Of a stretch of DNA of 33,115 nt, positions 6,263 to 18,460 are shown in pieces. Position numbers and translations under genes: made by a program. Each line of letters starts with the position of its first letter. The stretch's first letter is position 1. This stretch comes from an uncultured Flavobacteriales bacterium (lineage in GTDB: Bacteria > Bacteroidota > Bacteroidia > Flavobacteriales_G > Salibacteraceae), in contig CAKZKD010000032.1 in assembly GCA_937121175.1 (NCBI GenBank), positions 1 to 33,115 of the forward strand. The letters run 5' to 3'. Under the pieces are notes generated by a model. That model was not told the origin of the DNA. It searched no databases and saw only the letters and a program-made list of their open reading frames with translations.

Positions 6263-9200
6263 CTAACGTTGTATTATCAACCGCTCCTTATAAACTCCTT
6301 TAGTACTCGAAAGCTCAAATTGATACATTCCACTAGGCAATTCTTGCAATAGATAATTGCGAGCAATTTGTGTGGTTGTAGGCTTAATGTTTTCTTGATA
6401 AACCACTTTACCTTCAAAAGAGAATATTCTCAATTCAAATTCCTGTAACTCTGAAAGATTTAACGTCATACCAAAAACACCATTCGATGGATTTGGGTAT
6501 ATGCTAAACTCTTGAACCCAACCATTAGAAGCATCAGCAACTCCAACAGAAGTATATGTATAAGGTTCTGAGAGTACTGTGCAACCAGACGAATTCGATG
6601 TTTCAACTTGGTATACTCCATTCTGAGACGGACGAATTAATGAGCCAATTTCACCGGCCTGTGGAACACCACCCAAATACCATTGATACGAACTTGCTGT
6701 TGTACTTACCAGGTCTTGACCAATTTTACTAATGGTAGAAGGAGCAGGTGCGGAAATGATAGAAACTATAACTTGATTCGAGGATACTGCACATCCATTA
6801 TGGTCTGTATGATTTACAGAAAATACACCTGCTGTGTTTACCAATTGAGTATCTGCTGGGCTCTGGTCATTCGACCATGATAAACCAGTTTTAATATCAG
6901 ACGATAAAACAATATCATCACCTGCACAGATTTCTACTGAACCTCCCGGGGAAACAAATGGTGCGTTTGGAGCTGGAAACAATCGAACAGCAAGTGGATT
7001 TGAAACTGCACGACAACCATTAGAATCAGCATGTGTAACCTGATAGCTTCCGCTACTCTTAACTACAATAGAAACAGCATTACCACCTGCATGTGACCAT
7101 GTATTACCGTTGGCATAAGATGAATGCAATTGAACACTATCTCCAGGACAGAATGCAGTATCACCAGTAAATGTAATGAGTGGTCTACTTGGATTAGCAT
7201 TCACTTTTATTGATTCACTAGTACTGTTACTTAAACATCCATTGTCAAATAATCCTAGCGAAACAATTCCAGGGCTTTTTACAACAATAGAACTTACGGT
7301 ATCACCAGTTGACCAGCGACTCCCAACCGAAGCAGAAGAAACTAACGTGACACTATCTCCAGCACAGAATTCTGTGTTTCCAATGGCACTAATTACCGGT
7401 GTTGACGGTAAATTACCAACACTCACACTTATAGAGTTGCTTATTGCCTCACATCCTATTGTGTTGATTAACTTGACCGAATAGGTTCCCGAAGTCTTTA
7501 CAGTAATACTTTGAACGGTATCGCCTTGACTCCAATTGTTTCCTGTTTGAGCACTAGAAGTCAGAACAACACTATCACCTTGACAGAATCCAGTTGGGCC
7601 ATTTGCAGAAACAATTGGCGCTGAAGGAACGGGATTTACTAGCACCGATTGCGTTGCTAGAGTTGACTCACAGCTATTTGCATCCACAATTTTAAGAGAA
7701 TAAACTCCTGTGCTTTTCACCGTTATCGAATTAGCGGTATCAGTAGTTGACCAAAAATTACCGTTTAAATTACTTGAAGAAAGAATAACGCTATCTCCTT
7801 GGCAAATAGTAGTTGCTCCACTCGCATTTATTGAAGGCAATGCAGGAACGGGATTAACAGTTACCAATAAATTTTGAGATGTTGCTTCACAACCAAATTG
7901 ATTGTATGTAGTAACCGAGTAGTTTCCATTTGCATTCACCTGAATTGCAGCCGTGCTATCATTTGTTGACCACTTATTATTCGAAGCCGAACTTGAGTTT
8001 AGCGTAATCGAATTTCCTGCGCAGAATGTTGTTGCACCACTTGCCAAAATCGTAGGTACAACTGGTGTAGGGTCAGAGGTAATTTGAAGCACAGACGAAG
8101 AAGCCGAACAGCTGTTAGTGTCTGTATATGTCAACGATACCGTTCCGCTTACTTTTCTGACAATCGAAGCCGTTGTATCTCCGGTTGACCATAAAATACC
8201 AGAATTGAGACTGGAAACAAGAGTTACACTATCACCCGAACAAAAAGTAGTGTCACCAATCACGGAAATACTTGGAACGACTGAAAGTTGATTCACTTTG
8301 ACAAAAAGATTTTGAGAAATAGCCTCACACCCATTCGCATTAACCACTCTAACATTGACATTACCAGTGGTGCTTACACTAATAGAATTATTAGTATCAC
8401 CTGTGGACCAAACATTATCTGCGGCTGAACTAGAGTTTAACGTAACACTATTTCCTGCACAGAACTCAACCGGACCAGAAGCCGATATAACTGGCACGGC
8501 TGGAACGCTATAAACTGTTATTGCTCTGGCATCTGAAGTACTCACACAGCCGTTCATATCAGTGTGCTGTACAGAATAAATACCTGCAGCTTTTACTGTT
8601 ACTGAGGTGGTTGTGTCTCCTGAACTCCAAACTATACCAGAAGAGTAATTTGTTACTAAAGTCACACTATCTCCTGCGCAGAATGTACTATCCCCTATCA
8701 GGTTAATAATTGGTTTCACTGGTCTTGGATTCACATTTACGATGGTTGGTAGTGAACTCGATTCACAGCCGTTTGCAGATTGCACAACTACCGAATAGCT
8801 ACCACTTGCTTTCACCGTTATTGCAGAACTCGTATCTCCACTAGACCAAGTGTTATTGAGTGGAGCAGAGCTGCTCAACAAGACGCTTCCTCCATCACAA
8901 AAAGTGGTAGCACTGTTAGCTGTAATTACAGGAACAGCTGGTGCATTAAAGACTGAAATACTAACAGGCTCAGAGGTTGACTCACATCCACTGCTGTTGG
9001 TTGTTTGTACATCATAAGTCCCTGCCGATTTTACAACTATAGAATTCGTTGTGTCTCCACTACTCCAAAGCAAACCTGAGTTTATACTTGAGCTCAACAC
9101 CACACTATCTCCAGAGCAGAATGAAGTGTCTCCGTTTACAGTAATGAGCGGTTTAGCTGGCTCTGGTCTTACATTAACAAAAATACTGTTAGAGGTAGCA

Positions 9201-12200
9201 GAACAACCGTTTGAAGTACTCACAGAAACTGCATAATTTCCAGTAGTCTTAACGTTCAGCGTATTTGAAGTATCACCGCTAGTCCAAGTATTGTTTGACA
9301 ATGCTGTGCTCGATAGCAAAACACTATCCCCAACACAGAAATCAATTGAACCATTTGCAGTAACAACTGGTGCTGTCGGTGAATTGAACACTGCAATGCT
9401 TACAGCATCTGAAATAGCTTCACAACCTACGCTATTTGTCGCTTTTACATCGTATGTACCAGCTGTTTTTACCACAATAGAATTAGTTGTATCACCACTA
9501 CTCCAAAGAATTCCTGAATTAACGCTTGAACTCAATACAACACTATCTCCAGAACAAAACGAGGTATCACCGTTAACTGTGATAATTGGATTAGTTGGAT
9601 GGGGTTTAACGTTAACCATTATGCTGTTGGAGGTTGCTGAACATCCATTTGGTGTTATCACGGAAACTGCATAGTTTCCTGTAGCGGTTACACTGATAGA
9701 ATTCGTAGTATCCCCATTCGTCCAATTATTATTTGTTAATGCTGAACTAGTAAGTAAAACGCTACCTCCGTCACAAAAATCTACAGAACCATTAGCGGAA
9801 ATAACAGGAGCAGACGGGGAGTTAAACACTGAAATATTAACTGCCTCTGCGCTAGCTTCACACCCATTTGTGTTGGTAGTTTTTACACCATAAGTGCCTG
9901 CGGTTCTGACGATAATCGAGTTTGTGGTATCACCCGTACTCCACAAAAGACCACTATTGATAGTTGAACTCAATACTACACTATCGCCAGAACAGAAAGA
10001 AGTGTCTCCGTTGACGGTAATTACTGGTTTTGTCGGCTGAGGCCTAACATTAACCATAATACTGTTTGAAGTTGAAGAACAACCGGTTGCCGAGTTAAGT
10101 GTAACTGCGTAATTACCAGAAGCTGATACAACTACTGTATTTGTTGTATCACCCGTTGTCCAGAGGTTATTTGTTGGAGACGAACTGATTAACAATACGC
10201 TTTCGCCGTCACAAAAATCTACAGATCCGTTTGCTGAAACAACAGGTGCAGCTGGACGTGCATTTACTGTGATATTGGTTGGCATTGAGGTCGCGTCACA
10301 TCCGAACTGATTCGTTGTTTTAACAGAATATGACCCCGTATTTTTAACCACAATGGAAGAACTAGTAGCTCCTGTACTCCACATCAGGCCAGCATTAACA
10401 CTAGAAGTGAGCTGAACACTATCTCCTGAACAGAATGTGGTGTCGCCGCTTACCAAAATTGTTGGAACAGCAGGCTGGGCGTTAACTTGCACCGCAACAG
10501 GATTAGAGGTGCTACCACATGAACTGGACGCTCCAACAGAGACAGTGTATTGACCAGAAGTTTTCACATTGATACTAGAAGCAGTTGAACCATTAGACCA
10601 TAATACGTTAGATGCATTCGTACTTAGTGTTACTGAATCTCCCGAACATAAAACAGTGTCACCCGAAACCATAATTGAAGGTTTTGATGGCACTGAATTG
10701 AAGCTCACTATTTCGCTTACCGTGCCACTTTCACAACCAGAGTTACTCTTTACATGCAATTGGTAAGTTCCGTTGGTTGAAACTATAATACTTGAAGTTG
10801 TGTCTCCCGTTGACCACACATTCCCTGTAGCAGAAGACGAGAATAGTAAAATGCTGTCTCCAACACACAAATCGTTCGTATCGCTCCGAGTGATGGAAGG
10901 TGTTTGTGGTATTGTATTTAAGCCAATTGAAGTAAAGTCTGAAGTTGTAGAACAACCATTAACTGCAACTGCCGTTACCGAATAATTACCAGCATTCTTC
11001 ACTGTAATGGAATTCGTGCTTTCACCAGTGGACCATTGTACCGTGCCACCAAAGCTGCTAGAAAGCGTAACACTATCTCCTACACAAATTTGATTTAAAC
11101 CAGAATTAGTAATCAACGGCTTCGCAGGCGCATTGTTCACCACAACATTTGCCGGTTGAGAACTACTAGTACAACCAAACTGGTTGGTAAAATCAACGGT
11201 ATAGCTTCCAGCATTTTTCACTAAAATTGAAGTAGAAGAATCGCCGGTTGACCATTTATTACCATTTGGTTGATTTGAAATAAGAAGCACACTATCTCCT
11301 GTGCAGAACGTGGTATTTCCAGAAGCGTTAATAACAGGACTACTTGGCGAAGGATTTACTGTAACTAGAACTGGAACTGAAGTTGACTTACAACCGTTTG
11401 AGCCTGTTGTAGTGGTTGCATAGTATCCCGTTTGTTTTACGGTGATTGTATTAGAGGTAGACGAATCGCTCCAAAAATTACTAACCGTATTTGATGCCAG
11501 AGAAACTGAATCCCCTGAACAAATAACGGAGTCCCCAACTAAGGTAACCAATGGTTTTGATGGCTCTGGAAGTAAAGAAATATTTATCGGATTTGACTCA
11601 GATGCACACCCACCAGCATTCGTATATTTTACAGTTATTGAAGCAGCGGAATCAACAGTAATCACTGAATCTTGGATGCCATTGCTCCATGTAACATTGT
11701 TAGATGGTGAAGCTTTTAATTGCACACTTTCTCCTTTACAAAAAGAGGTAGAACCCAAAGCAGTAATTATTGGCTTAGCTGGGGGCGCCAAGAATAACAC
11801 AGTGTCTTCATTTGAAGTAGAAACACAATTGTCGGCATCCGTTACCTGAACTTTGTAGTTTCCGTTGGTCGATACTTTTATTGTTTGAGTTGTATCGCCA
11901 GTTGGGAACCAAACATTGCCAGAAGAGCTACTTGAAGAAAGCACTAGGGAGTCTCCTAAACACACACCTGCCGATGAGCGGTTAATAGCAGGTATTGTAT
12001 TCGTTGTGATTTGTAACGGATCGGATGTCGAAGAACATCCACTTCCATCAGTGTATGTTACCGTGTAAGCTCCACCTTGGGTTGCAGTAATAGTTTGTGA
12101 AGTTTGTCCACCGGGGTACCATTCAATTCCTGATGTTTGATTAGTTGAAAGAATTACGCTTCCTCCTAGGCAAAATTTTACAGGCCCAGAAGCTGTTAAC

Positions 12201-15200
12201 GTTGGTTTGGCTGGAGGCGTACCAGCCGTAACAGGAATCGAATTAGATTGAACAGAACAAGAGTTAGAATCAGTTGCGATAACATAATAATTTCCTGGAG
12301 TGGTAACGTTCACCGTTTGCGTTGTCATTCCACCTGGATACCAAGTAATTCCAGTACTCCTATCGGCTGTTAACGTAACCGAACTACCACTACAAATAGT
12401 TGTGACCCCTACAGCCGTAATCGTAGGTGTAACCGCTACTCCGACTTTGAAAGTACTATCACTTTGATCTGTTTTTGTTGCATCAGAAGCATCTGAAACA
12501 CGAATTAGGTATTGAGAACCTACTTGAGAAGGTACATTCCAATCGTAGGTTCCTGTTGCACTTCCGTATGCATTTTGAATGGTCGTCCAAGAGAGTCCTG
12601 CATTACTGCTGTATTCGATTTTATATGCCGCTGAATTACCTGAATCTGTCCAACGAATTTGTTGCTGGGTACATCCATTCCAGAATTCACCACCGCTTGG
12701 CTGGTTAACAGTAATTTTCTGGGAACCTGCAACAATCTTGAACGCAACAACACTCTGAGTTTGCTTACAATTTGCAATGTTATCGGTGATTCTAATTTTT
12801 GCGTTGTTTGTAACTGTACCAGGAACTATCCATTGATATGTATTGCCACTAGTGTTAAAGTTAAACGCAATGTTTGTCCAAGTACTTCCACCGTTAGTGG
12901 AGTAATCTATGTTGTAGTAATTTGAAGTACCGTTACTGGTCCAATCCAACAATACAGTGTCGCCTACATAATATGTCTCTCCATTATTGGCCGTGTTTAA
13001 TTTTAACGGAAGAGAAATCGCAAATGGATTATCACTTTCGTCTGACTTAGATGCATCGTTTCTATCTCTTACACGAACCTTTACCTTAGCAGAACCCGTA
13101 TTTGGCATGGTCCAGTTATAAATTGGATTGGAACTGGAAGAATAGAAGTTACTATTGATAGTTGTCCAATTAGTTCCTCCATCAAGCGTATAAGCAATAT
13201 TGTATCGGTTCGATGTTCCGCCTGCTTTCCAAGTAATGGAAGTAACGGTACATCCTCTGTAGTTCACTTGGCCATTATTTCCATTTGGAGAAAGAAGAGT
13301 AATGCTTGGTGTGATAAAGAAATTGGCGTTGCTTATGTCGTACATAGAAGCATTTCCATATTCAGAAACTCTAACTAATGCTTTTTCCGTAGAAACATTT
13401 GGTACAGACCAAACTTCAGAACCATCGTTGTTGGTAATGTTTGAAATCACGTTCCATGTAAGGCCTGAATCCAAGCTATAATCAAGTCTTACATAGGGTG
13501 ATGTAAGATGAGAGCTTGACCAGCGAACCGTATAGTTTTGACCTTGATAAAGTGTGTTTGCGCCATTGGGTGCAGTTAATGTTAAAGTAGGCGTTGGAGG
13601 GGTTACCTCAAATACGGAATCACTTTCGTCGTACTTGCAACTGTTGTAATAATCCTCTACCTTAATTTTATAATTTACACCAGGATTGTTTGGTACCGAC
13701 CAATTGACACTATTAGCATAAGTATTACTCGTTACATAACTATAAGATAAACCATCATTCGTAGAGTACCTTACTCTAAATCTAGAGACACCGTTATCTA
13801 CCCAAGTGATAAGGTTCGTAGTTGAAGCCTCCCATTCTTCCCCTCCAAGTGGAGAAGTTACAATGATATCTGAGTTAGGCACTATTGTAAACTTTGAATC
13901 ACTTTGATCAGAAAGATTTCTTGAAGCGTCACTAACCCTAATAAAAGCGTTTGCGCCTGACAATTTAGTTGGCAGACTCCAATTAAAATTTGAACCTGAT
14001 CTATTCGAAATGAATATCCAAGTAGCTCCACTATCCAGAGAATATTCAACCCGCACCGTTCCAGAAGTTCCTCCACTCAACCACGAAATATTTTTTGACT
14101 CACAGCCTCTCCATAATTCACCGCCATTGGGTGATGTTAAGGTCAAATATGGTTCTCTAACTGTAAATCTTCCACTCCAATCATACACTGAAGGACTCCC
14201 TGATTCAGTTACCCTTACAAAACATTTTGTAGAAATAGAATCTGGTACAGTCCAAGTGTGGCTTCCGTCGTTCGAGGTAGTTTGTACAACACTTTTCCAC
14301 GTTGTACCCGAATCCGAAGAAAAATCGATGTTTACAAACGAAGAATTCAAGTATTGGCTTGACCACCGGATTGAGTATGCACTTTGAGGGTATAGTATAT
14401 TTCCGTTTGGCGCAGTTACAGTAATTACTGGTTGCGGGGGTAATACACTGAAAACAGAATCGCTCTCATCGTATTTACAACTGTTGTAATAATCTTCTAC
14501 CTTTATTTTGTAGTTAGCGCCGGGATTATTAGGTACAGACCAATTGTGAAAATTACTGTAGGTGTTTGAGGTGATGTAGCTGTATGATGCTCCGCCGTTA
14601 CTTGAAAATCGAACCCTAAATCGAGAAACATTATTATCAACCCAAGAAACACGTTCCGTCGTTCCTGCTTCCCATTGTTCACCACCAACCGGGTCAGTAA
14701 TAATAATATCTGTGTTCGGAACGAACGTGAATTTAGAATTACTTCTATCCTCAGTTCCTTTACTAAAATCGCGGATTCTTATGAATCCTTTTGTGGAGCT
14801 GAGCTTTGAAGGAACGCTCCAGTTAAAATTTGTACCTGATCGGTTGGTAATAAAATTCCAAGTTGCACCGGAATCTAAAGAATATTCTAATCTGTATGTT
14901 CCAGAACCTCCACCAACTGACCATGAGATAGATTGTGTATTACAGCCCTTTACAAGCTCACCTCCGTTCGGAGTATTCAAAGTGATGAAGGGAGATGCAA
15001 TTGAAAATGTAGCGTTGCTAATGTCGAATAGCGAAGGATTATTGTATTCACTAACCTTCACTAAGACATTGGTTGTTATAGAATTCGGAATTATCCAAGG
15101 GTCACTTCCATCATTTGCGGTCACACTGCTGTTCACAACCCAAGTAGCACCAGAATCTAATGAGTATTCAGTTCTTACAAAAGCCGAAGTCAGGTAAGAA

Positions 15201-18200
15201 GAGGACCAATTAATGCTTCTAGACTCTCCAGGATAAAAAACATTTCCACCGTTCGGATAGGTTACATTAAGAACAGGTGTTGGAGGGGTAATAGAGAACA
15301 CCGTATCACTTTCATCGTATTTGCAAGAGTTGTAATAATCCTCCACCTTTATTTTGTAACTAGCTCCAGGACTATTTGGTATGGTCCAATTTTGTGAATT
15401 ACTGTAGGTGTTTGACGTAATGTATGAATAGGATGTTCCTCCATTTGAAGAAAAACGCACTCTAAACCGAGATACGCCATTATCAACCCAAGTAATAGTT
15501 TTACTTGTTCCAACTTCCCATTGCTCACCTCCATTTGGAGATGTTACAATTATATCCGAGTTAGGTATAAGGCTAAACTTAGTGTTACTTTGATCACTCA
15601 ACCCTCTTGCCGCATCACTTACTCTTACAAATGCATTTGATGAAGATAGTTTAGTTGGCAGACTCCAAGTAAAATTAGACCCCGAACGATTGGTAATAAA
15701 AACCCAAGTAGCCCCACTATCTAGTGAGTACTCCACTCTTACAGAACCAGATGTTCCACCACTCGTCCAAGAAATACTTTTGGACTCACAACCCTTCCAA
15801 ACCTCTCCTCCATTCGGAGAAGTGAGGGTAAGATAAGGCTGTGCAATCGTAAATTTCCCGCTCCAATCGTAAATAGTTGGACTACCGCTTTCAGTAACTC
15901 TAATAAAACAATTCGACGAAATTGAATTTGGCACTGACCAAGAATGAATACCATCGTTAGCTGTAGTTTGCGCAACACTATTCCAAGTTGTCCCAGAATC
16001 TGATGAAAAATCAATATTAACAAAGGAAGAATTTAAGTATTGACTAGACCATCTAATGGAGTAGGATTGTTGTGGGTAAAGCGTATTTCCATTTGGAGCC
16101 GTAACCGTTATTACAGGCTGTGGAGGTAAAACGGTAAAAACTGAATCACTCTCGTCATATTTGCAGCTATTGTAATAGTCTTCAACTTTAATTTTATAAT
16201 TTGCTCCTGGATTATTGGGAACAGACCAATTGTGAAAATTGCTATAGGTATTAGAAGTAATGTAGCTATACGATGCACCACTATTAGAAGAAAAACGAAC
16301 TCTGAATCGAGATACGTTGTTATCAACCCATGAAATTCGTTCTGTTGTTCCGGCTTCCCATTGTTCACCACCAACTGGATCTGTGATGATAATATCAGTA
16401 TTAGGCACAAAGGTAAATTTCGAGTTACTCTGATCTTGAATTCCTCTGCTTATATCCCTTACCCTAATAAAACCCTTTGTGGAACTTAACTTTGAAGGAA
16501 CAGTCCATGAGTAACTTGTTGATGAGCGATTATTTATAAACACCCATGTAGATCCTGAATCCAAGGAATATTCTAGTCGATACGTACCAGATCCGCCACC
16601 CACTGACCATGAGATAGACTTCGATTCGCAACCCTTCCAAATTTCGCCACCATTAGGAGCGTTGAGCGTAATAAACGGAGAAGCAATATTAAATGTGGTA
16701 TTACTAACGTCAAATAGAGTAGGATTTCCATATTCACTAACTCTAACAAGAGCATTTGTAGTAATTGTATTAGGAATTGTAAAAGGATCGCTACCATCGT
16801 TTGCAGTTACACTGCTATTTACAACCCAAGTTGCTCCTGAATCTACTGAATACTCCGTTTTCACAAAAGCAGAAGTTAAATATGACGAACTCCAGTTAAT
16901 ACTTCTGGACTCTCCAGGATAAAAAGTTTGTCCACTGTTAGGATAAGTTACGTTTATGATTGGTGTCGGAGGAGTTACGGTAAATGTGCTATCGCTTTGA
17001 TCTTCGAAACAAGCTGTGTAATAATCTCTAACGCGAATCAAATAATTTGAGGATGGAGTATTAGGAACTGTCCAGTTAACCGAATTTCCGTAGGTGTTTG
17101 AGGTAACGTAACTCCAAGTACTTCCTGCATTACTTGAATACCAGACCCTAAACCTTGACCTTCCATTATCAACCCAAGTAATCGTTTTGGTTGTTCCTGC
17201 TTCCCATTGCTCGCCACCCGTCGGAGAAGTAACTATGATACTCGTATTATTTGAAATATTAAGAGAGTTATCCGAAACATCATTTGTACTTGCATTGTTT
17301 CTGTCGCTAACTCGAATCAATGCCGAACCCTTAATAGTATTTGGCACCGCCCAGGTGTAACCAGCGTTTGTAGTGCTTGAACTGTAAACATTTGTTGCTA
17401 TTGCAGTCCATGTAGAGCCGTTATCGATCGAATAATGGATATCGTACCGTCGGTTAGTTATACCGCCGTTTGCCCAACGAATGGTGTAGCTATTACAACC
17501 CTGAAAATTCTCGCCTCCATTTGGGTAGGTCACTGTAATAAATGGGTTTTTAATGGTAAAATAATTATTACTTGAATCAGCCAAATTTGACCCTACTGCC
17601 TTTACTTTCACCATACAAGCGTTTGATGGTGTATTCGGAACTGTCCACAAATGACTTCCTGTATTGGCTACCCCTGTAACAATTGGAGTCCAAGTATTTC
17701 CAGAATCGGTAGAATAATCAAGTGCAATTAAGTTCGTTGTCAAGTTTGCTGCGCTCCACTGAATATTATAGCCTGTACCTGAGTAATAGGTCTGACCTCC
17801 ATTTGGTGTTGTTAGTGATAATGTAGGCGTAGGAGGGTCGATAGTAAAAACATTATCACTTTTATCAGTCATACAAGCATTGTAGTAATCCGTGATTTGC
17901 ACCAATGCAGTTGTGGACTGATTGTTAGGTACAGTCCAGTTATAAATTCCCGTAGTGTTGTAGTAGTTGGAACGAATGGTTGTCCAGTTAGAACCCCCGT
18001 TGATAGAATACTGAATATTGTAACGGTTCCCAGTTCCTGTAGCTGCCCAGGTTATGCTTTTTGAAGTACCAGCTTCCCATGTCTCGGAACCATTTGGAGA
18101 AGTTAGAATGAGCGGAGCAGTAATGGTAAACGAAGAATTACTTTGATCGACAATTGACGGTGTGTTCGAATCCTGGATTCGAACTAAGCAGTTAGAGGTG

Positions 18201-18460
18201 TTAATGTTAGGAACCGTCCAAGCGTAAGAACCGGAAGTAGTATTGTAAAAACTCGTTACAGAAGTCCAATTAGTTCCCCCATCTGTAGAATAGTCAATCG
18301 AATAAAAATTTGAAGTTCCACTTGCAGTCCAAGTAATGTTCTTACTTGTACATCCGGCCCATATCTCACCACCGTTTGGCGAGGTAATGGTAATGGACTG
18401 TGATATTGCAAAAAGAGAGGCGAATAATGATAAAACGGTTGTAAGTAATATTCTTTTCAT
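6263..18460 (-). CDS. Giant multidomain T9SS-secreted surface protein (adhesin-like)
   Basis: One uninterrupted 4,065-residue frame. Residues 1-21 are a signal peptide (MKRILLTTVLSLFASLFAISQ). Residues 22-2010 are 21 tandem domains of about 94 aa with the pattern SPNGGE.W..G....ITW, Y.S.D.G..W, W.VPN and VRV.D, resembling Kre9/KNH-type Ig-fold repeats. Residues 2011-3973 are 26 complete domains of about 73 aa (FC.GDSV.L.SS, W.SGDTT.SI.V, G.Y.V, GC) with one Cys pair each, plus a final copy lacking the first Cys. The last ~93 residues are a type A T9SS sorting domain (SIYPNPSNGVF, LPSGMYQFEL). The predicted route is Sec export, T9SS translocation and surface attachment or release; adhesion or matrix function is inferred from the architecture. 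No enzyme domain is visible. It is probably monocistronic, with a hairpin terminator at 6209-6239. The repeats make assembly collapse a concern, but the frame is intact. Confidence 0.93.
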   Translation of the reverse strand: MKRILLTTVLSLFASLFAISQSITITSPNGGEIWAGCTSKNITWTASGTSNFYSIDYSTDGGTNWTSVTSFYNTTSGSYAWTVPNINTSNCLVRIQDSNTPSIVDQSNSSFTITAPLILTSPNGSETWEAGTSKSITWAATGTGNRYNIQYSINGGSNWTTIRSNYYNTTGIYNWTVPNNQSTTALVQITDYYNACMTDKSDNVFTIDPPTPTLSLTTPNGGQTYYSGTGYNIQWSAANLTTNLIALDYSTDSGNTWTPIVTGVANTGSHLWTVPNTPSNACMVKVKAVGSNLADSSNNYFTIKNPFITVTYPNGGENFQGCNSYTIRWANGGITNRRYDIHYSIDNGSTWTAIATNVYSSSTTNAGYTWAVPNTIKGSALIRVSDRNNASTNDVSDNSLNISNNTSIIVTSPTGGEQWEAGTTKTITWVDNGRSRFRVWYSSNAGSTWSYVTSNTYGNSVNWTVPNTPSSNYLIRVRDYYTACFEDQSDSTFTVTPPTPIINVTYPNSGQTFYPGESRSINWSSSYLTSAFVKTEYSVDSGATWVVNSSVTANDGSDPFTIPNTITTNALVRVSEYGNPTLFDVSNTTFNIASPFITLNAPNGGEIWKGCESKSISWSVGGGSGTYRLEYSLDSGSTWVFINNRSSTSYSWTVPSKLSSTKGFIRVRDISRGIQDQSNSKFTFVPNTDIIITDPVGGEQWEAGTTERISWVDNNVSRFRVRFSSNSGASYSYITSNTYSNFHNWSVPNNPGANYKIKVEDYYNSCKYDESDSVFTVLPPQPVITVTAPNGNTLYPQQSYSIRWSSQYLNSSFVNIDFSSDSGTTWNSVAQTTANDGIHSWSVPNSISSNCFIRVTESGSPTIYDWSGKFTIAQPYLTLTSPNGGEVWKGCESKSISWTSGGTSGSVRVEYSLDSGATWVFITNRSGSNFTWSLPTKLSSSNAFVRVSDAARGLSDQSNTKFSLIPNSDIIVTSPNGGEQWEVGTSKTITWVDNGVSRFRVRFSSNGGTSYSYITSNTYSNSQNWTIPNSPGASYKIKVEDYYNSCKYDESDTVFSITPPTPVLNVTYPNGGNVFYPGESRSINWSSSYLTSAFVRTEYSLDSGATWVVNSSVTANDGSDPWIIPNSITTNVLVKVSEYNNPSLFDISNATFSIASPFITLNTPNGGELVKGCNTQSISWSVGGGSGTYRLEYSLDSGATWNFITNRSGTNFNWSVPSKLSSTKGFIRIRDFSKGTEDRSNSKFTFVPNTDIIITDPVGGEQWEAGTTERVSWVDNNVSRFRVRFSSNGGASYSYITSNTYSNFHNWSVPNNPGANYKIKVEDYYNSCKYDESDSVFSVLPPQPVITVTAPNGNILYPQSAYSIRWSSQYLNSSFVNIDFSSDSGTTWKSVVQTTSNDGSHTWTVPDSISTKCFVRVTESGSPSVYDWSGRFTVREPYLTLTSPNGGELWRGCESKNISWLSGGTSGTVRVEYSLDSGATWIFISNRSGSNFNWSLPTKLSGANAFIRVSDASRNLSDQSDSKFTIVPNSDIIVTSPLGGEEWEASTTNLITWVDNGVSRFRVRYSTNDGLSYSYVTSNTYANSVNWSVPNNPGVNYKIKVEDYYNSCKYDESDSVFEVTPPTPTLTLTAPNGANTLYQGQNYTVRWSSSHLTSPYVRLDYSLDSGLTWNVISNITNNDGSEVWSVPNVSTEKALVRVSEYGNASMYDISNANFFITPSITLLSPNGNNGQVNYRGCTVTSITWKAGGTSNRYNIAYTLDGGTNWTTINSNFYSSSSNPIYNWTMPNTGSAKVKVRVRDRNDASKSDESDNPFAISLPLKLNTANNGETYYVGDTVLLDWTSNGTSNYYNIDYSTNGGSTWTNIAFNFNTSGNTYQWIVPGTVTNNAKIRITDNIANCKQTQSVVAFKIVAGSQKITVNQPSGGEFWNGCTQQQIRWTDSGNSAAYKIEYSSNAGLSWTTIQNAYGSATGTYDWNVPSQVGSQYLIRVSDASDATKTDQSDSTFKVGVAVTPTITAVGVTTICSGSSVTLTADRSTGITWYPGGMTTQTVNVTTPGNYYVIATDSNSCSVQSNSIPVTAGTPPAKPTLTASGPVKFCLGGSVILSTNQTSGIEWYPGGQTSQTITATQGGAYTVTYTDGSGCSSTSDPLQITTNTIPAINRSSAGVCLGDSLVLSSSSSSGNVWFPTGDTTQTIKVSTNGNYKVQVTDADNCVSTSNEDTVLFLAPPAKPIITALGSTSFCKGESVQLKASPSNNVTWSNGIQDSVITVDSAASITVKYTNAGGCASESNPINISLLPEPSKPLVTLVGDSVICSGDSVSLASNTVSNFWSDSSTSNTITVKQTGYYATTTTGSNGCKSTSVPVLVTVNPSPSSPVINASGNTTFCTGDSVLLISNQPNGNKWSTGDSSTSILVKNAGSYTVDFTNQFGCTSSSQPANVVVNNAPAKPLITNSGLNQICVGDSVTLSSSFGGTVQWSTGESTNSITVKNAGNYSVTAVAVNGCSTTSDFTSIGLNTIPQTPSITRSDTNDLCVGDSILLFSSSATGNVWSTGDTTSSIIVSTNGTYQLHVKSNSGCESGTVSEIVSFNSVPSKPSIMVSGDTVLCSGDSVTLSTNASNVLWSNGSTASSINVKTSGQYTVSVGASSSCGSTSNPVAVQVNAQPAVPTILVSGDTTFCSGDSVQLTSSVNAGLMWSTGATSSSIVVKNTGSYSVKTTNQFGCDATSMPTNITVNARPAAPVVSANGSVDFCDGESVLLISSSPTNNLWTTGDTTNTVVVSASGNYAVTLNSATGCSSTSNSIMVNVRPQPTKPVITVNGDTSFCSGDSVVLSSTINSGLLWSTGDTTNSIIVRTAGTYGVKTTNTNGCEASAEAVNISVFNSPSAPVISANGSVDFCDGGSVLLTSSALTNNNWTNGDTTNSISVTATGNYAVSVITPNGCSATSNSIMVNVKPHPTNPIITVNGDTSFCSGDSVVLSSSVNSGILWSSGDTTNSIVVKTAGTYDVKATNSVGCEAISDAVSIAVFNSPTAPVVTANGSIDFCVGDSVLLSSTALSNNTWTSGDTSNTLNVKTTGNYAVSVSTSNGCSATSNSIFVNVRPEPAKPLITVNGDTSFCSGDSVVLSSSINSGLLWSSGDTTNSIVVKSAGTYDVQTTNSSGCESTSEPVSISVFNAPAVPVITANSATTFCDGGSVLLSSSAPLNNTWSSGDTSSAITVKASGSYSVVVQSANGCESSSLPTIVNVNPRPVKPIINLIGDSTFCAGDSVTLVTNYSSGIVWSSGDTTTSVTVKAAGIYSVQHTDMNGCVSTSDARAITVYSVPAVPVISASGPVEFCAGNSVTLNSSSAADNVWSTGDTNNSISVSTTGNVNVRVVNANGCEAISQNLFVKVNQLSVVPSISVIGDTTFCSGDSVTLVSSLNSGILWSTGDTTASIVRKVSGTVSLTYTDTNSCSASSSVLQITSDPTPVVPTILASGATTFCAGNSITLNSSSASNNKWSTNDSTAAIQVNANGNYSVTTYNQFGCEATSQNLLVTVNPVPALPSINASGATTICQGDSVILSSSNLNGNFWSTTDTANSITVKSTGVYSLKIVDANSCESTLATQSVLVNPVPSAPIVSANGPTGFCQGDSVVLTSSAQTGNNWSQGDTVQSITVKTSGTYSVKLINTIGCEAISNSISVSVGNLPSTPVISAIGNTEFCAGDSVTLVSSASVGSRWSTGDTVSSIVVKSPGIVSLGLFDNGCLSNSTSESIKVNANPSRPLITFTGDTAFCPGDSVQLHSSYANGNTWSHAGGNAVSIVVKSSGSYQVTHADSNGCRAVSNPLAVRLFPAPNAPFVSPGGSVEICAGDDIVLSSDIKTGLSWSNDQSPADTQLVNTAGVFSVNHTDHNGCAVSSNQVIVSIISAPAPSTISKIGQDLVSTTASSYQWYLGGVPQAGEIGSLIRPSQNGVYQVETSNSSGCTVLSEPYTYTSVGVADASNGWVQEFSIYPNPSNGVFGMTLNLSELQEFELRIFSFEGKVVYQENIKPTTTQIARNYLLQELPSGMYQFELSSTKGVYKERLIIQR
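6542..12430 (-). repeat. Array of 27 Ig-like two-cysteine repeats
   Basis: I count 26 complete coding repeats of about 219 nt plus one degenerate copy next to the sorting domain. Each complete copy has one Cys near the start (FC.G) and one near the end (GC or SC), a conserved W in the middle and a G.Y.V strand. This suits an intradomain disulfide as in Ig folds. Linkers are proline-rich (NP.P, N..PA.P). Confidence 0.85.
8936..10249 (-). repeat. Three tandem copies of a two-domain (438-bp) unit
   Basis: Ig-like domains 11-16 alternate between two subtypes: APV.(S/T)ANGS.DFC and (K/N)P.ITVNGDTSFCSGDSVV. The 1,314 bp divide into exactly three 146-codon pairs. This is the most homogeneous part of the Ig array and probably the most recently expanded. 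Confidence 0.75.
12431..18397 (-). repeat. Array of 21 Kre9/KNH-like domain repeats in A-B-C order
   Basis: I count 21 coding repeats of about 280 nt. They fall into three types repeating in order. Type A has a GC dipeptide before the first W strand. Type B has EAGTT..ITW and a late Cys, usually in YYN.C. Type C has YPG....INWSS..L and usually a GS/DGS stretch. The order is (ABC) six times, then A, B and a final A-like copy. Confidence 0.85.
13307..16675 (-). repeat. Tandem six-domain super-repeat (2 x ~1.68 kb)
   Basis: Domains 7-12 (14990-16675, 562 codons) and 13-18 (13307-14989, 561 codons) match position by position. Examples are SISWSVGGGSGTYRLEYSLD in domains 7 and 13, DPVGGEQWEAGTTER in 8 and 14, and RWSSQYLNSSFVNIDFSSD in 9 and 15. 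The likeness between blocks exceeds that between neighbouring triads, so a six-domain block was probably duplicated as a unit. Confidence 0.8.

Follow-up and report, generated by a model that had tools for sequence, protein, structure and literature searches.

Super-repeats of titin and fibronectin arrange domain types in a higher-order repeat along a tandem Ig/FnIII chain, as does the protein described here, and we know of no neighbour-domain cysteine code in either of them. Closer to this protein is grappling hook protein A (GhpA) of Aureispira sp. CCB-QB1, likewise a giant tandem-Ig protein, which is reportedly the subject of a study by Lien et al. in 2024. GhpA is represented in the PDB by 9flp and seven further entries; it is 5898 aa long and heptameric according to the available part of PMC13319060, and the corresponding part of PMC11205867 presents grappling hooks as heptamers of a protein secreted by the type IX secretion system (T9SS). 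It matches the C-terminal tail of our protein with an E value of 1.9e-49, is the nearest solved relative of that tail, and in the stretches examined has C-x-G and GC cysteine motifs similar to those of the tail. No match of GhpA to a profile of the shaft triad was obtained at E values up to 1, and homology to GhpA along the whole length was not found.

Two other systems offer partial parallels. The E-G5 repeats of SasG from Staphylococcus aureus, as described in the available text of PMC4458895, form a long monomeric surface stalk of alternating domain types whose interfaces keep it extended, in that account without covalent cross-links, whereas disulfides between Ig/FnIII-like domains are proposed here. 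Intramolecular isopeptide domains of surface fibres, some of which carry Por_Secre_tail or CHU_C anchors, provide covalent stabilisation, but in the part of PMC12617251 available their bonds lie within one domain, in contrast to a disulfide between neighbours. Our search of the open-access literature, a scope outside which most subscription journals lie, returned no recognisable description of interdomain disulfides in Bacteroidota Ig arrays or of this protein; the inter-domain disulfide of PMC5029526, to judge from the available portion of that article, belongs to a synthetic pilin linker and is unrelated.

Results

The window, by which we mean the whole 33,115-nucleotide stretch analysed, from an uncultured Flavobacteriales bacterium (contig CAKZKD010000032.1), contains a giant protein encoded by a single ORF and made up of a leader, a shaft of 21 tandem Ig-like domains (aa 22-2007, window positions 12440-18397), 27 tail domains and a T9SS sorting tail. 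Its features, with the three domain types A, B and C, are as follows.

6263..18460, minus strand: giant ORF, 4065 aa (ORF call and profile matches)
18398..18460, minus strand: N-terminal hydrophobic leader, aa 1-21, putative signal peptide by eye (translated sequence)
17543..18397, minus strand: domains 1-3 (A, B, C); A Cys37, B Cys196, extra Cys91 and Cys282 (alignment)
16676..17542, minus strand: domains 4-6 (A, B, C); A Cys322, B Cys484 (alignment)
15836..16675, minus strand: domains 7-9 (A, B, C); A Cys611, B Cys766, extra Cys851 (alignment, modelled)
14990..15835, minus strand: domains 10-12 (A, B, C); A Cys891, B Cys1046 (alignment, modelled)
14150..14989, minus strand: domains 13-15 (A, B, C); A Cys1173, B Cys1328, extra Cys1413 (alignment)
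13304..14149, minus strand: domains 16-18 (A, B, C); A Cys1453, B Cys1608 (alignment)
12719..13303, minus strand: domains 19-20 (A, B); A Cys1737, B Cys1898 (alignment)
12440..12718, minus strand: domain 21, A-type in C position, Cys1930, with Cys2068 of the first tail Ig domain as proposed partner (alignment and relatives)
6530..12439, minus strand: 27 Ig_7-like tail domains, aa 2008-3977, 26 of them with A-like and B-like Cys (Pfam match, Cys positions)
6530..6736, minus strand: last tail Ig domain, aa 3909-3977, with B-like Cys3960 only and no A-like Cys (Cys positions)
6272..6502, minus strand: T9SS type A sorting domain, aa 3987-4063 (PF18962, TIGR04183)

The sorting domain scored 35.7 bits against PF18962 (cut-off 27) and 33.1 bits against TIGR04183 (cut-off 23), and in the window's genome the T9SS sorting tail is matched at least 150 times, with 150 of the 239 candidates having been scored. 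Pfam families were assigned to eight of ten neighbouring ORFs scanned and to none of the other two; they are mostly household families (SSF symporter, Cons_hypoth698, desaturase, MFS, DEAD helicase, hydrolase, topoisomerase and ABC protein), and no partner gene was apparent among the ten. Because its neighbours are mostly of this kind or lack a Pfam family, the giant gene appears to stand alone. A second giant ORF in the same genome, of 11,098 aa, has a T9SS tail and Ig_7-like stretches (G000:C4:155796-157763).

A preliminary description of this DNA had claimed 21 tandem domains, and our alignment agrees; it places all 19 shaft cysteines in exactly three columns. The A-type column, always within a GC dipeptide, is filled in domains 1, 4, 7, 10, 13, 16 and 19, that is, in every A domain as had been claimed, and also in domain 21. 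Domains 2, 5, 8, 11, 14, 17 and 20 have their cysteine in the B-type column, so that the motifs noted earlier near the ends of B domains (YYNAC, YYTAC, YYNSC four times, and IANC) prove to share a single column, while domains 1, 3, 9 and 15 have one in the extra column. In an identity matrix domains 5-18 group by type as well. The strict order of three types described earlier is upheld by the cysteine columns only as far as domain 20: domain 21, at a C position, has an A-type cysteine in the window and in four other complete 21-domain relatives (L048, L049, L051 and L071), contrary to the statement that C domains have none. With domain 21 as A-type, the shaft order is (A-B-C)x6, A-B-A, and a three-type code strict to domain 21 is ruled out.

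The label Kre9/KNH-like, given earlier to these domains, fits them poorly. With a cut-off of 24.6 bits, PF10342 scored 15.2, 14.5, 14.4 and 18.6 bits in four of seven single domains tested and had no match in the other three, nor was it among the Pfam matches of the whole protein at E 0.001. We rejected this identity on those sub-threshold scores. A model of domains 7-12, like the structures that it matches, is an Ig/FnIII-like chain. It had a mean pLDDT of 92 with a weakly determined inter-domain arrangement (pTM 0.53), and aligned with 6xi3 (Z 10.0, rmsd 12.6, 333 aligned) and 3t1w (Z 10.0, rmsd 8.8, 341 aligned); domain 9 aligned with a whole antibody V domain (2znw_A, Z 8.2, rmsd 2.8, 90 aligned). 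Foldseek and VIA-align returned many complement, Ig and FnIII chains, and GhpA was not among the matches listed, VIA-align covering chains of up to 3,000 residues. As modelled, domains 7-12 form a tandem chain of seven-strand Ig/FnIII-like beta-sandwiches.

Within this model the A cysteine (model residue 15) is in the AB turn, flanked by strands 11-13 and 17-23, and the B cysteine (model residue 170) is in the FG region, which follows the long F strand 156-165 and precedes strands 172-174/179-182. In the Ig/FnIII fold the AB loop is at the C-terminal pole and the FG loop at the N-terminal pole, so the two cysteines would both be directed to the A-B junction and, on this topological argument, would face each other across it. 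A-B linkers are of 1-3 residues in 37 of 44 junctions. The mean number of prolines around the junction is 2.5 for B-to-C, compared with 0.7 for A-to-B and 1.1 for C-to-A; the flexible C spacers proposed earlier find no support in these proline-rich B-to-C linkers, judged by linker sequence.

No giant relative was found in the three other genomes of the genus; a search of 35 genomes of the family yielded two orthologues, L071, which is complete with 3711 aa and 21 domains, and G011, which is cut, and a scan of named genome contigs yielded 24 loci, among which L048, L049 and L051 have 21 domains each, L052, L053, L055, L057 and L061 are cut or shorter, and L050 has 21 domains but is split by an in-frame stop. 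This stop, a TAA inside domain 10 (L050:9281-9283), represents either a sequencing error or a pseudogene; both pieces keep the cysteine code. Across the phylum, 60 of 395 genomes (the window's own included) gave a match at E 1e-30, and among 20 stretches fetched from these 60 the A/B code was present only in L075, which has 15 domains. The resulting census comprised 52 ORFs from 47 loci and the window, with 723 domains. Records carrying the A/B code are named Flavobacteriales, Bacteroidales, Marinilabiliales, Chitinophagales and others.

Both A- and B-type cysteines occur in 14 ORFs, with 73 A, 62 B and 55 other domains, and B follows directly after A in 58 of the 73; 5000 shuffles within proteins, a comparison that ignores shared descent, gave a mean of 23.8 (s.d. 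3.2, maximum 36). Fourteen more A domains end their array, 2 at a cut (L047 and the first part of L050) and 12 before a tail Ig domain, which has a B-like cysteine in all 12 cases; the one exception is domain 4 of L052, whose A-column cysteine has no B after it. The B domains comprise 58 after an A, 3 that start a cut contig and 1 after the L050 A domain split by the stop. Among testable domains, a B-type cysteine thus follows 70 of 71 A domains and an A precedes 59 of 59 B domains. The preliminary description had named regular absence of one cysteine while the other stays as an outcome that would tell against its proposal; such absence was seen for one of 71 testable A domains (L052 domain 4) and for none of 59 testable B domains.

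This adjacency survives changes in spacer number and array length: L053 has two C domains between B and the next A (ABCC, compared with ABC in most), and L053 and L075 have 15 domains as against 21 in the window and four intact relatives. Outside the 14 ORFs, 533 domains held a single A-column cysteine (L066) and no B-column cysteine. Pairing of B with the next A across C was considered and rejected, since two C domains intervene in L053 and none between domains 20 and 21.

The tail beyond domain 21 is built of shorter domains that resemble PF19081 (Ig_7, CHU_C-associated Ig-like), which scored 43.1 bits in the whole protein (cut-off 27.3) with aa 2012-2078 as best stretch. Its 53 cysteines are 26 A-like and 27 B-like, and with the A cysteine of domain 21 the count becomes 27 and 27; as the last tail domain is B-only, the cysteine of domain 21 closes the count exactly under a rule pairing A of domain n with B of domain n+1. 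The last Cys-bearing tail domain is likewise B-only in 8 of 9 family members with an intact end (the window, L049, L050, L051, L055, L057, L061 and L071; L075 ends otherwise). The model covering domain 21 and the tail was poor (mean pLDDT 68.5, tail mostly under 50).

Over 42 tail-type arrays the n-to-n+1 rule was broken at 24 of 290 junctions and pairing inside the domain in 57 of 332 domains; 21 arrays favoured the former, 7 the latter, and 14 were ties. These figures follow a cleaning chosen after the raw result, which removed 2 of 44 ORFs as well as array ends that were partial or lacked Cys; before it, the rules were broken at 36 of 321 junctions and in 86 of 387 domains, respectively. 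Eleven of the 24 broken junctions belong to L104, which has other repeat types and is fitted by neither rule. The L104 protein (L104:2219-10390, minus strand), encoded in the window's genome, is a repeat protein of 2724 aa with 86 cysteines at a different spacing, some repeats having four. In the Ig array of L093 (L093:2005-6930, minus strand), which reads XBABAXBAB, each domain without an A-like cysteine is followed by one without a B-like cysteine, so that the n-to-n+1 rule is broken at none of 8 junctions, as against 7 of 9 domains for intradomain pairing. L095 and L099 end with both cysteines, and in each the linker that follows the final Ig domain has a lone cysteine, which in L095 immediately precedes a PNAFTPN motif; by its position this linker cysteine could cap the last A-like cysteine.

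The extra cysteine has a position of its own, where strand F begins. Within the family, 31 of 73 A domains, 30 of 62 B domains and 40 of 55 others have it, as do 169 of 533 domains outside the family. Where it is missing, the usual residue is Ala, Val, Tyr or Leu; from these substitutions it looks like a buried core residue. The preliminary description had located it correctly in domains 1, 3, 9 and 15, but its spacing of six is no rule. A segmental duplication of domains 6-11 gave domains 12-17 (77-97% identical as protein, 0.68-0.79 as DNA), and this duplication together with losses at domains 6, 12 and 18 accounts for the six-domain spacing in the window; orthologues differ, most of their C domains having the extra cysteine. 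We thus rejected a six-domain cysteine period as a functional feature.

Among five 21-domain proteins, with domain 21 counted as its own type, the best cross-species match was of the same type in 387 of 420 comparisons, while domains 1 and 20 matched by position in 20 of 20 and inner domains mostly did not; the types are therefore old, the ends fixed and the middle mixed. Despite this inner mixing by duplication, the shaft has 21 domains and 1984-2008 aa in five lineages, a constancy that hints at selection on length.

Discussion

We conclude that a disulfide between the A cysteine of domain n and the B cysteine of domain n+1 is the best explanation of the conserved cysteine pattern, and put its probability at roughly 0.77. 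The A-to-B bond of the preliminary description thus remains the best reading, with co-occurrence of the two cysteines kept across relatives, although the strict code to domain 21, the six-domain period and the flexible spacers attached to it have fallen away. What that description missed is that the same pairing seems to run through the whole C-terminal Ig tail, an extension that we regard as plausible and hold with less assurance than the shaft part, at somewhat better than even odds.

Alternatively, one could envision that the cysteines bond in another way, or not at all. For the tail, the two cysteines of each Ig_7-like domain might bond inside that domain, leaving domain 21 and the last domain as orphans. 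Both cysteines are indeed present in 26 of 27 tail domains of the window, and this pairing is the better fit for the 7 arrays counted above, with 14 ties, but an Ig domain has its AB loop at one pole and its FG loop at the other, a B-only domain closes the tail in 8 of 9 relatives with intact ends (window included), and 7 of the 9 L093 domains have a single cysteine without breaking any n-to-n+1 junction; we consider intradomain tail bonds unlikely while giving them real weight. It is improbable that the A and B cysteines instead form intermolecular disulfides between parallel shafts of an oligomer, bundled like the heptameric grappling hook. The resemblance of the tail to GhpA, heptameric as stated in the available part of PMC13319060, is in favour of such a bundle, and a lone cysteine per domain suits dimer bonds; adjacency would not be needed for it, yet is held in 70 of 71 testable cases despite changes in spacer number, and homotypic pairing would leave A untied to B.

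Nor do we give much credence to the view that there is no bond, the pattern being a frozen by-product of triad duplication and the cysteines free thiols or attachment sites. Segmental duplication is evident in domains 6-11 and 12-17, and a search of the window's genome found neither DsbB nor VKOR, although neutral thiols would be expected to decay independently, whereas A and B are kept together across several orders and the F-strand cysteine, by contrast, has been lost piecemeal. Only two DSBA-family proteins with CxxC motifs were found in that genome, which weighs against the preferred bonding as well. Where it is present, the F-strand cysteine is a possible alternative bond partner. That an A- or B-type cysteine generally bonds the F-strand cysteine of its own domain is very improbable: domains with both number 31 of 73 for A and 30 of 62 for B, but more than half of A and B domains lack an F-strand cysteine, which is commoner where A and B cysteines are missing (40 of 55 in the family), frequent in relatives without the code (169 of 533), and replaced by residues expected at a buried core position.

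Under the preferred pairing of neighbours, the protein would be a T9SS-exported and probably surface-anchored fibre of about 48 Ig-like domains stacked end to end. The AB-loop cysteine of domain n, at its C-terminal pole, would be oxidised together with the FG-loop cysteine at the N-terminal pole of domain n+1, making the shaft a series of stapled A-B pairs separated by C domains on proline-rich linkers. From domain 21 onward every domain but the last has an A-type cysteine that would face the B-type cysteine of the next, and the tail would accordingly form a continuous daisy chain of 27 disulfides ending in the B-only domain. Such bonds would be expected to stiffen the fibre, whose role may be that of a load-bearing, non-unravelling stalk holding something off the cell.

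We further propose, tentatively and at slightly less than even odds, that giant surface fibres throughout the Bacteroidota are built to a single construction code, the pairing of AB-loop Cys(n) with FG-loop Cys(n+1). A domain with A only would then be a start, one with both A and B a link, one with B only an end, and one with neither an unstapled spacer, and stiff and free stretches, those of grappling hooks included, could be read from cysteine positions alone. If true, a very long cargo would have to be folded with dozens of correct interdomain disulfides before or during type IX export, and would be so in a genome in which DsbB and VKOR were not found by our search. It would also mean that the locked and bendable junctions of many uncharacterised giant surface proteins could be read from sequence.
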